Positions 4,913 through 55,048 of a stretch of DNA of 64,000 nucleotides are shown piece by piece. The stretch covers positions 1-64,000 of the forward strand of contig CACBON010000001.1 of the NCBI GenBank assembly GCA_902540805.1, given 5' to 3'. The notes beneath the pieces were generated by a model. It was not told the DNA's origin and did no database searches. It worked only from the letters and a program-made list of their open reading frames with translations. The position numbers and the translations under genes were made by a program. Source of the DNA: an uncultured Alphaproteobacteria bacterium (lineage in GTDB: Bacteria > Pseudomonadota > Alphaproteobacteria > Methylaequorales > Methylaequoraceae). Each line of letters starts with the position of its first letter. Position 1 is the first letter of the stretch.

Positions 4913-7487
4913 AATTTATAATTAATTCGTTGTTTTCATTTATAGTTACACTTACTTGTGAACCTTCCCTAATATTATTACTTAAAATGAGATGTGCTAT
5001 CTTATCTATAATCTCTTTTTGTATAAGTCTTTTTAATGGTCTTGCTCCATATAAGTTTGAAAACCCTTCATTTACAATCCAATTCTTTGATTTTTCATCA
5101 AATTTAGCTCTAATTTTCTTAGGTTTCAAAATTTCTTCAAGATAATCCAATTGAATATCAATAATTTTTTTAATTTCTTTTTTTGTTAGCCTGTTAAATA
5201 TTATAGACTCATCAATTCTGTTTAAAAATTCAGGTTTAAAATGCTTTCTGACTTTTTCCATTATTTTTTCTTTTGTAAAAACCTCCACTTGATTCTTTTG
5301 TTCATCAGAAAACTCAATTAATTCCGCACCTAAATTTGAAGTCATAATTATAATTGTATTTTTAAAGTTTACAAATCTTCCTTTGGAGTCGGTTAACCTT
5401 CCATCATCAAAGACTTGTAATAATAAATTAAAAACATCTGGATGAGCCTTCTCAATCTCGTCAAGCAGAACTAGTTGATATGGTTTTCTTCTAATAGATT
5501 CTGTTAAAATTCCCCCTTCCTCAAAACCAACGTAACCTGGAGGTGAACCAATTAATTTAGATACTGAATGCTTTTCCATAAATTCAGACATGTCCAATCT
5601 AAATAATGATTTTTTATCATTAAAAAGGAATTCGGATAGAATTTTTGTTAACTCCGTTTTTCCTACACCTGTAGGTCCTAGAAATAAAAAAATACCTATG
5701 GGTCTGTTAGGATCTTGAATTCCAGCTCTTGCTCTAAGTACACATCTAGATATTTTTTGAATTGCTTCAGATTGTCCAATAACTTTTTTTTGAAGTTCAT
5801 TCTCCATATTGATTATTTTTTCTTTTTCCCCCTCTAGCATTCTTTCTACCGGAATTCCTGTTGATTTAGATATCACTTCTGCTATTTCATCAGGAGATAC
5901 GTACTTTCTTAAAATCTTCTGCTCTTTCTTCGATTCTAGCATTTTAAGTTTGTTTTCTAGTTGGGGAATCTTACCGTAAGCCAGTTCTCCTGCTTTTGAT
6001 AATTCACCCTCTCTTTGCAGGATGTTTAATCTATTTCTATTGGATTCAATTGTAGATTTGAGTTTTTGAATATCGTTAATTACATCCTTTTCTCTAATCC
6101 AATTATTATTAAAATCTTCAAATTCTTTCTCTAATTTTTTTATTTCTTCTTTAAGATCATTTGTTCTGTCTACAGACTTTTTATCGTTTTCTTTTTTTAA
6201 GCTTTCATATTCAATTTTATTTTGTAAAAGTTTTCTCTCAATTTTATCTAGCTTTTCAGGCTTTGAATCAATTTGTAATCTTATACGTGATGCTGCTTCA
6301 TCCATAAGATCAATTGCTTTATCAGGTAAAAATCTGTCATTAATATATCTTTGAGATAATTCAACTGCGGAGACTATTGCTGAATCTAGAATTTTAACTC
6401 CATGATGAACTTCATATTTCTCTTTTAATCCTCTTAAAATGGATATTGAATCATCCAAGCTTGGTTCCTCAACCAAAATTTGCTGAAATCTTCGAGCTAG
6501 AGCGGCGTCTCTTTCAATATGTTCTCTGTATTCATTAAGCGTGGTTGCGCCAATACAATGGAGTTCTCCCCTAGCTAAGGCAGGTTTTAATAAATTTGAT
6601 GCATCCATTGCTCCATCAGTTTTACCAGCACCTACTAAAGTGTGTATTTCGTCTATAAATAAAATAGTTGAATGTTTATTGTTTTCGATATCCTTAAGTA
6701 TTTTTTTTAATCTTTCTTCAAAATCTCCACGAAATTTTGCTCCAGCAACTAATGAACCTAAATCTAATGAAATGACTTGTTTTTTTTTTAATGAGTCAGG
6801 AATATCATTATTTATAATTCTTAATGCTAATCCTTCAACAATAGCGGTTTTACCTACACCGGGTTCTCCTATAAGTACTGGATTATTTTTTGTTCTTCTT
6901 GACAGAACTTGAATACTTCTTCTTATTTCTTCTTCTCTTCCAATTACTGGATCTAATTTTCCCAATTTTGCCAATTCTGTAAGATCTACAGAATACTTTG
7001 ATAGTTCATCAGAACTAGAATTTTTATTTGTATCGTTAATAGTTTGGCCTTTCCGTAGTTTTAAAATGATAGATTTAAGTATATTCTTATTTAATTTCTT
7101 AGTATTCAATAATTGAGTAATCTTTAAATCTTCAAAACATAAAATAGTATACAATAAAATTTCAGGAGAAATAAATGAATCGTTAAATTCATCTTTTCTT
7201 GTTTTTGATAATTCTAAAACCTTAATTAGTTCATCTGAAAGAAAAACATTAATATTCCTTCCAAGAACTTTAGGTATATTAGAAATTTCTTTTTCAACTA
7301 AATCTACAAGATTCGATTTATCTAATTGTAAATTTTCAATTATATCCTCGATAAAACTATTAGAATCATTAAAAATACTAAAAATTAAATGTTCGACTGA
7401 AATTTGTTGATTGTTTAGTGATACCGCTTTATTTTGTGCTTGATTAATTAAGAATTTACTTTTATCGTTGAATTGATCAAAATTCAT
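4905..7487 (-). CDS. clpB: ATP-dependent chaperone ClpB
   Basis: 860 aa, two AAA+ domains (GEPGVGKTAIVEGLA, GPTGVGKTELTK), coiled-coil middle domain, Clp N-domain. Confidence 0.96.
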   Translation of the reverse strand: MNFDQFNDKSKFLINQAQNKAVSLNNQQISVEHLIFSIFNDSNSFIEDIIENLQLDKSNLVDLVEKEISNIPKVLGRNINVFLSDELIKVLELSKTRKDEFNDSFISPEILLYTILCFEDLKITQLLNTKKLNKNILKSIILKLRKGQTINDTNKNSSSDELSKYSVDLTELAKLGKLDPVIGREEEIRRSIQVLSRRTKNNPVLIGEPGVGKTAIVEGLALRIINNDIPDSLKKKQVISLDLGSLVAGAKFRGDFEERLKKILKDIENNKHSTILFIDEIHTLVGAGKTDGAMDASNLLKPALARGELHCIGATTLNEYREHIERDAALARRFQQILVEEPSLDDSISILRGLKEKYEVHHGVKILDSAIVSAVELSQRYINDRFLPDKAIDLMDEAASRIRLQIDSKPEKLDKIERKLLQNKIEYESLKKENDKKSVDRTNDLKEEIKKLEKEFEDFNNNWIREKDVINDIQKLKSTIESNRNRLNILQREGELSKAGELAYGKIPQLENKLKMLESKKEQKILRKYVSPDEIAEVISKSTGIPVERMLEGEKEKIINMENELQKKVIGQSEAIQKISRCVLRARAGIQDPNRPIGIFLFLGPTGVGKTELTKILSEFLFNDKKSLFRLDMSEFMEKHSVSKLIGSPPGYVGFEEGGILTESIRRKPYQLVLLDEIEKAHPDVFNLLLQVFDDGRLTDSKGRFVNFKNTIIIMTSNLGAELIEFSDEQKNQVEVFTKEKIMEKVRKHFKPEFLNRIDESIIFNRLTKKEIKKIIDIQLDYLEEILKPKKIRAKFDEKSKNWIVNEGFSNLYGARPLKRLIQKEIIDKIAHLILSNNIREGSQVSVTINENNELIINYD

Positions 7488-38401: not shown

Positions 38402-38434
38402 AAAAAAAAACCTGACTGCTTAGCCAGGCTTTTT
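38402..38434 (-). terminator. Rho-independent terminator of pqqA copy 1 (possibly bidirectional)
   Basis: Stem CCTGAC/GCCAGG with 9-A run (U tract on minus strand) and T-run on plus strand. Confidence 0.75.
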
Positions 38435-38459: not shown

Positions 38460-38537
38460 CTACTTCTCAGCGCAAGCGTAAGAATTGATTTCAAGACCTA
38501 CAGAGATTTCAGAAATCATAGGTTTCGTCCAAGCCAT
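38460..38537 (-). CDS. pqqA: PqqA-like coenzyme PQQ precursor peptide, copy 1 (25 aa: MAWTKPMISEISVGLEINSYACAEK)
   Basis: PqqA-type E-x3-Y core (GLEINSY), WTKP N-terminus; RBS AAGGA upstream; identical second copy at 52369-52446. Confidence 0.85.
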   Translation of the reverse strand: MAWTKPMISEISVGLEINSYACAEK

Positions 38538-38807
38538 TGTTTATCCTTTAAAAAGTTAATATTAGATTACAATTTATTAAATCTAAATTAACGTTTGCTG
38601 ATTCTTATATTCATATCTTGTTAATGTATTTGAAAAGAATAGTTATTACTAAACTATGTAAGCTATTATTAATAAATATTTTATATGTAGATTATCTTCT
38701 GTTATTTTTTATACACATTGAATACAAAATCATATGTGAATTACGGAGAAAAACAATTTATATTATAAACATCTAGCCAATATTAATTTATACATTAAAT
38801 ACATATT

Positions 38808-50292: not shown

Positions 50293-52107
50293 TTATTCAT
50301 TTAATTTTTTTTCACGCTTTCTTTCATTGGAATCGAGATATTTTTTTCTAAGTCTAAGGTTCATAGGTGTTACCTCAAGCAATTCATCATCTCTTATAAA
50401 AGAAATCATTTGCTCTAATGTCATCTTAACTGGTGGTACCAAAGTAACAGCTTTATCTGAACCTGATGCTCTTACATTAGTAAGTTGTTTTCCTTTTAAA
50501 ACATTAATTTCAAGATCATTTTCTTTATTATGCTCACCAACTACCATTCCAGTGTATACTTTGGTTTGCGGTTTGATGTACATTACTCCTCTATCTTGCA
50601 GATTAAAGATTGCATATGCAACTGCTTGACCTGTCTCAGTTGATATTAAAGAGCCATTTCTTTTTTCTTTAAACTCTCCTTTAAATGGTTCATAAGCATG
50701 AAATATTCTATTGAGAATACCTGTTCCTTTTGTTTCTGTTAAGAATTGACTTTGATAACCTATTAGTCCCCTTGAAGGTGACTTAAAGATAATACGAGTC
50801 TTTGCTGAGGAAGTTTTCATATCGATCATTTCTGATTTTCTATTATTCATTGAGCTAATCACTGTGCTTGAAAAACTTTCATCAACATCAATTACAACCT
50901 CTTCAACTGGTTCTAATTTGATATTTTTTTCTGTTTTAAATAATACTTTTGGTCTAGAAACTGATAATTCAAAACCTTCTCTTCGCATAGTTTCGATTAA
51001 AACTCCCAATTGTAATTCGCCTCTACCGCCAATTTCAAAAGCATCTTTACTTTCGTTTTCACTAAAAGTAATTGCTACATTTGTTTCAGCTTCTGCCAAG
51101 AGCCTTTCTCTAATATTATTTGAGGTCACTTTTTTGCCTTCTTGCCCAGCAAAAGGGGAACTATTAACAGTAATGGTTATAGACATAGTTGGGGGATCTA
51201 TCGGAGAAGATTTTATGGGTTTAGAGACTAAATTATCGCAAATTGTATCTGAAACTGAAGCATTAGTTAAACCAGCAATACAAGCTATATCACCTGCAAC
51301 AATTTCATTAACAGGAATTCTTTTGTTTCCCTCAAAAGAAAATAATTTTGTTAATTTGCCTTTTTCTACAAGTTTTTGATTTAGATTTATTGCCTTAACA
51401 ATTTTATTAACTTCGGCATTCCCACTTTCAACTTTTCCTATTAAACATCTACCAACATAAGTATCGTAAGAGAGAAGGGTTGCTAGAAATGAAAAAGATG
51501 TTTCTGAATTAATTTTTGGAGGAGGCACATACTCTATTATTAAATTGAGAAGAGGGTGCAAATTTTCTTTTTTATCTTTGAGATCATTCACACACCAACC
51601 ATTTTTTCCAGAAGCGTATAGTATTGGAAAATCAAGTTGATCCTCATTTGCATTAAGAGTAACAAAAAGGTCAAAAACTTCGTCTAAAACGACATCTGCA
51701 CGACTATCTTTCTTATCAACTTTATTGATGATTACAATTGGCTTTAAACCTTGCGATAAAGCTTTACCTAAAACAAACTTTGTTTGAGGCATTGGTCCTT
51801 CTGAGGCATCTGTTAGTAAAATTACTCCATCAGCCATACATAAAATCCTTTCAACCTCTCCACCAAAATCTGCATGTCCTGGTGTATCTATTATATTTAT
51901 TTTTACTCCATTCCATTTAATTGACGTAGGCTTTGCCAAAATTGTAATACCTCGTTCTTTTTCTAAGTCGCCACTATCCATTATTCTTTCCCCAATCTCT
52001 TCATTCGATCTAAACATTCCAATTTGCTTAAGTATTGAATCAATTAAAGTGGTTTTGCCGTGGTCTACATGAGCAATAATAGCTACATTCCTAATATTTT
52101 TTGACAT
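50293..52107 (-). CDS. typA: Translational GTPase TypA/BipA
   Basis: RNVAIIAHVDHGKTTLIDSILKQ; ERGITILAK; DTPGHADFGGEVERIL; C-terminal RGLIGYQSQFLTETKGTG. Confidence 0.96.
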   Translation of the reverse strand: MSKNIRNVAIIAHVDHGKTTLIDSILKQIGMFRSNEEIGERIMDSGDLEKERGITILAKPTSIKWNGVKINIIDTPGHADFGGEVERILCMADGVILLTDASEGPMPQTKFVLGKALSQGLKPIVIINKVDKKDSRADVVLDEVFDLFVTLNANEDQLDFPILYASGKNGWCVNDLKDKKENLHPLLNLIIEYVPPPKINSETSFSFLATLLSYDTYVGRCLIGKVESGNAEVNKIVKAINLNQKLVEKGKLTKLFSFEGNKRIPVNEIVAGDIACIAGLTNASVSDTICDNLVSKPIKSSPIDPPTMSITITVNSSPFAGQEGKKVTSNNIRERLLAEAETNVAITFSENESKDAFEIGGRGELQLGVLIETMRREGFELSVSRPKVLFKTEKNIKLEPVEEVVIDVDESFSSTVISSMNNRKSEMIDMKTSSAKTRIIFKSPSRGLIGYQSQFLTETKGTGILNRIFHAYEPFKGEFKEKRNGSLISTETGQAVAYAIFNLQDRGVMYIKPQTKVYTGMVVGEHNKENDLEINVLKGKQLTNVRASGSDKAVTLVPPVKMTLEQMISFIRDDELLEVTPMNLRLRKKYLDSNERKREKKLNE

Positions 52108-52312: not shown

Positions 52313-52343
52313 AAAAAAAACCTGACTTCTTAGCCAGGCTTTT
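52313..52343 (-). terminator. Rho-independent terminator of pqqA copy 2
   Basis: AAAAAAAACCTGACTTCTTAGCCAGGCTTTT, nearly the same as the copy 1 terminator. Confidence 0.75.
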
Positions 52344-52368
52344 AAAATTTAATCTTTATAGATCGAAA

Positions 52369-52446
52369 TTACTTCTCAGCGCAAGCGTAAGAATTGATTT
52401 CAAGACCAACAGAGATTTCAGAAATCATTGGTTTTGTCCAAGCCAT
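52369..52446 (-). CDS. pqqA: PqqA-like coenzyme PQQ precursor peptide, copy 2 (same 25-aa sequence)
   Basis: MAWTKPMISEISVGLEINSYACAEK; strong RBS AAGGAGTAAACA-ATG. Confidence 0.85.
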   Translation of the reverse strand: MAWTKPMISEISVGLEINSYACAEK

Positions 52447-52692
52447 TGTTTACTCCTTAAATAAAAAGTTAATAAAATTATATTTTTTTATTATTTTTTT
52501 CTTAATAAACTCTGAGGGTGTTATTCACATTTGGTTAATCTTTTAGTTGAAAATTAAGGGGAGTAATCTCGGAGGGAAAATTATTAATAAAAAAGCTTAA
52601 GATATGAGAATTCAGTGCTTTCAGATAGAGAAGGAAAGACACTGATAAGAAATATCTTTAACCCAAATGTTATATAAATCCCTTAAAAACCA

Positions 52693-54297
52693 CTAGAAGA
52701 AATAAATTAAAGAGAATACTAAAATAAACCAAATAAACAAAATAATATACCGAGTTTTCCAAGTGTTATTAAAGTGCAATTTTTTGAAGGATTTTAATGA
52801 CCAAACAAAAGTTTCATTTGCTTGAAAGTTGGAGAAAAAAAAGTCGTGCACTATTGCAATTTTCAAAGTAACAACAAAACCAATTGCATTCCACCAAAGC
52901 CAAGATACGTTAACTAAATAAACCCAACAGTATAGATTAAATAAAAATCCACAAATGATTCCTATGCAAGCACTATTACCATTAATTTTTTTTGTTAAAA
53001 TACCTAATGTAAATACACCAATAATTGGTCCATTAATCAAAGAACCTATTTTATTGATTGCAATGAGAACATTGCTAGAAATGTCTTCAACATAAAAAGC
53101 CAAAATAATTGCTAATGAACCCCAAAATAAGGTTATTACTCTTGATATGAAAAGGTTATTTTTTTCTGAAAGATATCTAAAAGTTTTAATTCTTTTAACA
53201 AAATCCTCCATTGTTACTGCAGACAAGCTATTTAATACTGAATCTAAGGATGACATAGCAGCAGAAAACAAGGCTACTAGCGTTAGTCCCACAATTCCGA
53301 TTGGTAAATTATCTATTAGAAAAATAGGGACAGCCAAATTAAAGTTAGGTATCCCATCTTGATTTGGAAGACTTGAGATAAAATCAGCATTAATTTGGGA
53401 ATAAGAACCTATTCCTACACCAATTAAACAGTACAACAATACAAGAGGAAATCTTAAAATACCATTTAAAAAAAATACTTTTTGTCCCTCATTTTGATTT
53501 TTAGCGCATAGTGCTTTTTGCATTTGACTTTGATCACAACCATAATAAGACATATACAAAAAAAAACCTCCAATTAACATTGGCCAAAAAGCAAATTCTT
53601 TTCCATCACCAAGTCCATGCTCAAAGAAATTTAAATTTACATTTCTTTGATCTGGGAAATAATTAAACATTGATCTAAAACCACCAAAAATACTTGTTAA
53701 ATAAAAAAGAATAAATATAAGTACAACAGTCAAAATTATCATTTGAATAATATCACTGTAAATTATTGCTTTTATCCCTCCTATAACGTCGTAGACGATT
53801 GTTATAAGACCAAGTATAAGAACGGAATACACAAAACTTAAACCTGTTATTAATTCAATAACTATTGATACACTGTAAACAATTACTCCAGTTGCAAAAA
53901 CTCTTACAAAAAGAAATAATGAACTCATTAATAACCTCGTTTTGAGATCAAACCTTTTTTCAAGGTACTCGTATATTGAAATTATCTTTAATTTATAGAA
54001 AATTGGATAAATGAAAATCATGATTGCAATCATTGATAATGGCACTGCTAATTCATATTTCAACCAGCCCAAACCACCACCAACAGAAAAAGCAACAAAA
54101 GCAGGAGCACCTAAGATACTATTTGTTGAACATTGGGTAGCTAAAATAGAAATAGCCAATTTTTTTGATTTTTGTTTTCTTGATGCAACAAAATAATCTT
54201 TCAAGTTTTTTTGATCTTTTGATAAATAAACAGATAAAAGAATTAAACAAACTAAGTATCCAAATATAATATACCAGTCTAGATTTTCTAAATTCAT
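52693..54297 (-). CDS. Sodium:solute symporter (SSS) family transporter
   Basis: 534 aa polytopic; DYFVASRKQKSKKLAISILATQCSTNSILGAPAFVAFSVGGGLGWLKYELAVPL; FSAAMSSLDSVLNSLSAVTMEDF. Confidence 0.92.
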   Translation of the reverse strand: MNLENLDWYIIFGYLVCLILLSVYLSKDQKNLKDYFVASRKQKSKKLAISILATQCSTNSILGAPAFVAFSVGGGLGWLKYELAVPLSMIAIMIFIYPIFYKLKIISIYEYLEKRFDLKTRLLMSSLFLFVRVFATGVIVYSVSIVIELITGLSFVYSVLILGLITIVYDVIGGIKAIIYSDIIQMIILTVVLIFILFYLTSIFGGFRSMFNYFPDQRNVNLNFFEHGLGDGKEFAFWPMLIGGFFLYMSYYGCDQSQMQKALCAKNQNEGQKVFFLNGILRFPLVLLYCLIGVGIGSYSQINADFISSLPNQDGIPNFNLAVPIFLIDNLPIGIVGLTLVALFSAAMSSLDSVLNSLSAVTMEDFVKRIKTFRYLSEKNNLFISRVITLFWGSLAIILAFYVEDISSNVLIAINKIGSLINGPIIGVFTLGILTKKINGNSACIGIICGFLFNLYCWVYLVNVSWLWWNAIGFVVTLKIAIVHDFFFSNFQANETFVWSLKSFKKLHFNNTWKTRYIILFIWFILVFSLIYFF

Positions 54298-54655
54298 ATA
54301 ATCTTCCAGAGGTAAATCTGATTATTGTGAAAAATTATTAATTTTATCTAGTAATTCTTACTTTATAAATTCAAACTTTTTTTTTTCTATGTTAATCAGA
54401 CTAGTGAAAAAATATAATAGTTTCAAATTCAAATAATATTTTATAATTTAAAATTAGTATATTTTTCCTAACCCGTGAGGCCATGCTTTTTAGGGGAAAA
54501 GTTTCTAAATTAAGGTTCTAGAGTAGTGATTCTATTAGGAAAATAATTTGGTAGATTATTTATTAAAATAACACTTTTTCAATTACATTTTGAATAGTAT
54601 CGTAAATGATTGATAATTTGTTTTCCATTTGAGAGGGTTAGGGAGGTTTAGTGAA

Positions 54656-55048
54656 ATGCTAATGTTTGTACTCATAGCGTTGATAATATTTGGAAATTTA
54701 ATTTATGCTTATCAATGTATTTTCCAAACACGGAAGTATATTGAGAAATATGGCTTTGGTGAAGGCAGCGCAATAATGACAAGACTTGTGGGCACTTTTG
54801 CTGCCGGCTTTGCAGTCACCTTAGCTATTGCTTTACTTACTTCTATCGAAGGTGCTTGGTTACTGTTTATCTATGGTTTTGTGCAAGCATGTATCGGGGC
54901 AGTTGTTTGCTTTCAAACTATCCATAGTTATTGGGGTACTGTTGACGGTGTAAAGACATCTGCTGAGGGCTATGTCGCCCCTGCTATAATAGCATTTTTA
55001 AACTTAATGGTGCTTATTACTGGTTGGGATTTACTGTTTAAAATATGA
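54656..55048 (+). CDS. Small polytopic membrane protein of unknown function
   Basis: Four predicted TM segments; RBS GGGAGG before ATG at 54656 (ORF track starts at a TTG, 54629). Confidence 0.65.
   Translation: MLMFVLIALIIFGNLIYAYQCIFQTRKYIEKYGFGEGSAIMTRLVGTFAAGFAVTLAIALLTSIEGAWLLFIYGFVQACIGAVVCFQTIHSYWGTVDGVKTSAEGYVAPAIIAFLNLMVLITGWDLLFKI

Follow-up and report, generated by a model that had tools for sequence, protein, structure and literature searches.

Dispersed pqqA cassettes of streamlined marine alphaproteobacteria share an upstream operator with the pqq operon, and marine viral contigs carry pqqA

INTRODUCTION

The cofactor PQQ originates from the peptide PqqA, whose Glu-x3-Tyr pair is cross-linked by PqqE and becomes PQQ. 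One PqqA molecule is used for each PQQ; thus, PqqA is consumed stoichiometrically, whereas PqqB to PqqE are catalytic.

Multiple orphan copies of pqqA are already known, and the reason for their number is an open question in methylotrophy. According to one study, Methylophilaceae carry 3 to 12 pqqA copies and one pqqBCDE set (PMC4109929), and PqqA availability was rate-determining in a five-copy Methylovorus, as cited in PMC11317620. The open-access literature, which leaves most subscription journals outside its coverage, yielded one report of viral PqqA, that of the Lake Baikal viral population VP_266 (PMC7678222), and no publication that treats PQQ biosynthesis together with HIMB59. Quinone cofactors, XoxF, and methanol were not mentioned in the small part of the AEGEAN-169/HIMB59 literature that was searched.

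RESULTS

Source organism

The DNA analyzed, called the window throughout, is the whole stretch of 64,000 nucleotides. Its TypA was 100% identical to that of AG-903-D15 and 99% identical to that of AG-908-P05, both marine single-cell genomes, and 78% identical to that of the HIMB59-MED-G10 MAG, and by these identities the source organism belongs to the marine HIMB59/AEGEAN-169 group of alphaproteobacteria. The host genome is of the streamlined marine alphaproteobacterial type (1.2 to 1.4 Mb). The source assembly (1.21 Mb, 39 contigs) is 74.7% complete; at that completeness, pqqC, pqqD, and PqqE above the cut-off were not found in it, nor was ribosomal protein L2, and the PQQ enzymes of the source strain were assumed from close relatives.

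Two pqqA cassettes in the window

The features of both cassettes and of the surroundings of copy 2 are as follows.

38405..38434, minus strand: intrinsic terminator of copy 1 (terminator scan, 1 versus 0.1 in shuffles)
38460..38537, minus strand: pqqA copy 1, identical 25 amino acids (ORF, sequence alignment)
50293..52107, minus strand: typA/bipA, downstream of copy 2 (BipA_C domain); locus marker in relatives
52316..52343, minus strand: intrinsic terminator of copy 2 (terminator scan, 1 versus 0.2 in shuffles)
52369..52446, minus strand: pqqA copy 2, 25 amino acids (ORF; TIGR02107 and PF08042 above cut-off)
52453..52458, minus strand: Shine-Dalgarno AAGGAG of copy 2, kept in family cassettes
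52693..54297, minus strand: sodium:solute symporter, upstream of copy 2 (PF00474)

Both copies encode the peptide MAWTKPMISEISVGLEINSYACAEK, which scored 36.7 bits with TIGR02107 (cut-off, 20) and 30.8 bits with PF08042 (cut-off, 21.1) in profile searches; no solved structure matching the 25-amino-acid PqqA by sequence was found. The two window copies and the intact copies of the family all contain Glu16-x3-Tyr20. The sequence-only reading had described two copies, 13.9 kb apart, that encode the same 25 amino acids and differ at four positions. ORF translations and alignment confirmed the identical peptide, the alignment gave exactly these differences (ACG/ACA, CCT/CCA, GTA/GTT, and TAG/TAA, three silent and one in the stop codon), and the distance was correct. 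The common terminator also stood, since CCTGGCTAAGNAGTCAGG followed by T's occurred at the two pqqA loci and nowhere else in the 64-kb window, with 0 occurrences expected by chance. The idea of a complete monocistronic cassette was borne out and strengthened by a conserved operator and promoter, and the cassettes are longer than had been drawn, reaching upstream to the operators at 52501 to 52537 (copy 2) and 38587 to 38623 (copy 1). A genome-wide count with the 25-amino-acid peptide, which the same reading had proposed, revealed one further copy outside the window on the same contig (G000:C1:100807), 96% identical with one amino acid change, and brought the source genome to three pqqA loci.

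Copy number and loci across the family

At least one pqqA match was obtained in 30 of the 31 family genomes other than the source, with 1 to 5 copies each; some had a single copy, though most of the genomes are incomplete. Two of the 79 matches recovered contained internal stop codons. By synteny, the copy that immediately precedes pqqB was classed as operonic and the rest as orphans, and three orphan loci recurred in the genus of the window: that of copy 1 in G003, G004, G006, G010, G011, and G012, that of copy 2 in G003, G006, and G010 (with the operator in all three), and that of copy 3 in G003, G004, G005, G007, G010, and G012. Together, the source copies, the family synteny, and the single operon of the relatives amount to multiple pqqA loci alongside one set of pqqBCDE. 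In a wider sample of 385 alphaproteobacterial genomes, pqqA was found in 72, in two or more copies in 20 of them. The first view that scattered orphan cassettes are unusual finds no support: multiple copies beside one pqqBCDE set are the rule in Methylophilaceae, are known in Methylorubrum, and occur throughout this family.

Three further arrangements were observed. The stop-bearing copies (G020:C19:4576, L126, and G023:C14:188, L133) both lack the operator. At a contig end (G031:C19:306-530, L148), two pqqA genes with different leaders lie tail to tail, ∼70 bases apart, possibly as a chimeric join. At operonic loci, e.g., L116 at ∼6031 to 6100, a stem-loop rich in GC, with no clear T-run, separates pqqA from pqqB; it could keep the expression of the downstream enzymes below that of PqqA.

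Age, selection, and loss

Orthologs at one locus differed by a mean of 0.9 silent changes and no amino acid change, versus a mean of 4.5 silent changes between paralogs within one genome. Since orthologs are closer than paralogs, the copies are older than these species and have not been homogenized, and recent duplication or gene conversion was rejected on these values. For codons 9 to 25, a minimum spanning tree of 53 distinct intact sequences contained 82 silent and 6 amino acid changes, with ∼24% of changes expected to be silent without selection; the purifying selection on both copies that had been suggested is thus supported family-wide. Taken alone, the window pair, in which all three codon differences are silent, would have a chance probability of ∼0.014, and it is therefore the family comparison that carries the selection argument. 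Since orthologs of both copies are found in independent genomes, with silent changes particular to each locus, the two are old, separate, selected genes and not artefacts.

Copy 2 and the adjoining symporter are both missing from AG-892-F10 and AG-908-F15 (L067 and L068), whose TypA is 98% identical. There, TypA adjoins a 137-amino-acid gene, a relative of which lies in the window at 54629 to 55048, beyond the symporter. A cassette whose leader and terminator are similar adjoins a member of the same 139-amino-acid gene family in G025, G020, and G027. The simplest reading is that copy 2 would be an old cassette that has been rearranged and sometimes lost.

A shared operator upstream of pqqA

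Four half-sites with an 11-bp spacing precede each window copy.

38587..38623, minus strand: operator of copy 1, TAAC-N7-GAAT-N7-TCAG-N7-TAAT
52501..52537, minus strand: operator of copy 2, TAAC-N7-GAAT-N7-TCAG-N7-TAAG

The family form, (TAAC or GAAT)-N7-(GAAT or GAAC)-N7-TCAG-N7-(TAAG or TAAT), keeps the 11-bp spacing exactly and has an information content of 35 bits. Its core preceded 72 of the 79 pqqA genes of the family, both orphans and operonic ones, compared with 0.2% of shuffled upstreams; the seven exceptions were both stop-bearing copies, one copy with ambiguous bases, and others with degenerate or divergent upstreams. All sites above 24 bits in 937 kb of family DNA, a set enriched for pqqA loci, were at a pqqA. 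A whole-genome pattern search of 21 family genomes gave 54 sites, 52 of them upstream of pqqA, compared with 2 matches for a reversed control pattern; there was no site in 12 genomes from outside the family. As the pattern was drawn from the same pqqA upstreams, finding pqqA is expected, and the result is the near-absence of sites elsewhere, which makes the link between operator and pqqA near-exclusive.

A TATA peak (-10) starts 10 nucleotides after the last half-site in orphans and operons alike, while leaders, -10 regions, and the first half-site differ between loci. Tandem 11-bp-spaced half-sites before a -10 are reminiscent of OmpR/PhoB-type regulated promoters and of PhoB-type activation. 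PHO-box type operators, which are bound by OmpR/PhoB response regulators, have tandem half-sites with 11-bp spacing that end ∼10 bp before the -10, as here; in contrast, the half-site sequences of the family operator are different. An OmpR/PhoB-family response regulator would bind the pqqA operator, and the orphan and operonic copies apparently form one regulon through this family-wide site. The shared operator appears to be new, none having been encountered in the open-access literature on related topics.

The pqq operon and XoxF in relatives

PqqBCDE are present in most of the closest relatives, in a single pqqBCDE operon that adjoins a PQQ alcohol dehydrogenase. The best match of this dehydrogenase was the solved lanthanide-dependent XoxF 6oc5 (E value, 7.6e-240); its WDYDG aligned with WDFDG of 6oc5, and the extra lanthanide-coordinating Asp (D-x-D) was present. 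When the window ORFs and the xoxF genes of the relatives were compared, codon choice in pqqA resembled that in xoxF at most amino acids, and not the window average; Asn and Val differed.

Approximately 150 to 310 bases upstream of xoxF (L055 to L064), conserved TTCAT repeats and weak operator matches on the opposite strand were observed. The matches reached ∼9 to 17 bits in 9 of 10 loci; these loci are orthologs, so the matches count as one observation. Membership of xoxF in the same regulon as pqqA may be taken as a lead.

pqqA in marine viral contigs

A scan of 2.9 million viral contigs for the pqqA core gave at least 118 stretches, of which 115 could be read as a full-length frame, and a second codon variant of the core gave 100 more, with 99 verified PqqA frames. 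At least ∼217 viral contigs with pqqA, all marine, were thus identified (L169 to L286 and L322 to L421), a set that is new as far as searched; clustering at 95% identity over 1 kb sorted the stretches listed into 85 groups. Profiles for PqqE and PqqC gave nothing in the same 2.9 million contigs, and none of the 118 stretches, most of them shorter than a full phage genome, contained pqqB to pqqE or xoxF (a positive control was run). The pqqA operator was lacking in the viral stretches (best, 2.7 bits), and the host peptide start MAWTKPMISEISVG was absent from the viral contigs. No match was found in 50,697 phage isolate records with two peptides as queries, and no PHROG family matched.

The neighbours of viral pqqA included genes for a major head protein, holin, PhoH, single-strand DNA-binding protein, DNA ejection protein, and NifU-like protein; pqqA itself follows a holin gene, precedes an IscU-like gene, or sits in T4-like surroundings. 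IscU-like and nearby IscA-like genes were seen close to pqqA, e.g., at L210:5292-5690, L229:172-564, and L204:5239-5646, and these phage Fe-S assembly genes possibly act for the radical-SAM enzyme PqqE or meet another demand for Fe-S. All 5 sampled family genomes had the TCN-serine form of the core, as did one further genome among 385 alphaproteobacteria, a hint that HIMB59-type bacteria host the viral set that carries it. Phage IscU was 73 to 81% identical to family proteins and 58 to 78% identical to other full-length alphaproteobacterial ones, which leaves the host assignment weak. A present-day phage-borne nature of the host cassettes was unsupported: the neighbours examined are chromosomal genes, and the viral sequences lack both the host peptide start and the operator.

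DISCUSSION

Copy 2 would be a self-contained pqqA transcription unit composed of operator, candidate -10, Shine-Dalgarno sequence, 25-amino-acid ORF, and terminator, and several such units would have one regulatory site in common with the single pqqABCDE operon. Because PqqA is consumed and the enzymes are catalytic, extra co-regulated cassettes would raise precursor supply without extra enzyme, and the extra PQQ would load the XoxF-type methanol dehydrogenase. We consider co-regulated dosage of this stoichiometrically consumed precursor, for XoxF-type methanol dehydrogenase, to be the probable explanation, precursor dosage having been raised already by the sequence-only reading, and we infer that all pqqA copies are transcribed in concert and that PQQ output is limited at the step of precursor supply. 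The near-exclusive operator common to orphan and operonic genes, with the -10 at the same distance in both, its absence from stop-bearing copies, the selection on the peptide, the xoxF-like codon choice, the single pqqBCDE set beside XoxF in relatives, and the rate-determining PqqA of Methylovorus count in favour of dosage, and a phage that carries the substrate peptide without the enzymes fits the same precursor bottleneck. Against it count the family genomes with a single copy, though most are incomplete, the source assembly with its missing PQQ enzymes, and a five-copy strain in which pqqA1 and pqqA3 are expressed far above the other copies (PMC9851590).

Such unequal expression keeps alive the reading in which the copies deliver the same peptide under different conditions, e.g., of lanthanide or carbon supply, so that separate control and not total dose would matter. 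Copies respond differently in other methylotrophs (PMC9851590, PMC11317620, PMC10848612), and the variation of leaders, -10 regions, and first half-site between loci agrees with this, but the operator and its spacing are common to all loci, and we regard such a division of labour as rather unlikely. Duplicates that arise and decay without benefit would account for the stop codons in two copies, for the loci that differ between genera, and for the missing copy 2 in two close relatives; strong selection on the peptide, together with an operator kept at intact copies in small genomes, makes passive retention highly improbable. A possible part of orphan pqqA in lanthanide uptake has been suggested (PMC11317620), but it is equally hard to credit that the orphans have another role than to supply PQQ to the dehydrogenases of the host, e.g., in making PQQ for excretion or a lanthanide ligand derived from PqqA: in many genomes orphan and operonic genes encode the same peptide, and Glu16 and Tyr20 are kept. 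A false duplication of one copy, conceivable in a fragmented, incomplete assembly of 39 contigs and named in advance as what would undo the sequence-only reading, can be dismissed, given that the flanks differ and that orthologs of both loci, each with its own silent signature, are present in independent genomes.

Precursor dosage, as the preferred explanation, is made directly testable by a family-wide operator in genomes that discard most redundancy. A wider proposal, which we advance tentatively and which may well prove wrong, is that PqqA supply would be the PQQ bottleneck in abundant ocean bacteria, answered by dispersed cassettes under a dedicated operator and by phages that, with pqqA alone, keep alcohol oxidation running during infection. 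The precursor-only viral contigs lend the dosage idea independent backing and suggest that a viral influence on marine methanol and alcohol oxidation has been overlooked; if the proposal is true, phage pqqA would rank among the smallest metabolic genes that viruses have taken from their hosts.

Among the described systems, VP_266 resembles the viral stretches reported here in being viral and encoding PqqA, but it is reported among methylotroph viruses with methanol dehydrogenase (PMC7678222), whereas the stretches examined here show neither xoxF nor PQQ enzymes. The Methylophilaceae and Methylovorus MP688 (five copies) share with this family scattered pqqA genes and a single set of biosynthesis genes; they are, however, of a gammaproteobacterial lineage, and the accessible part of that account (PMC4109929) mentions no shared operator, while the host here is a streamlined marine alphaproteobacterium. 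For their part, pqqA2 and pqqA3 of Methylorubrum extorquens AM1 are likewise orphan genes in an XoxF-using alphaproteobacterium; there, their expression changed while that of most PQQ genes did not (PMC11317620), whereas here the orphans and the operon share one operator.
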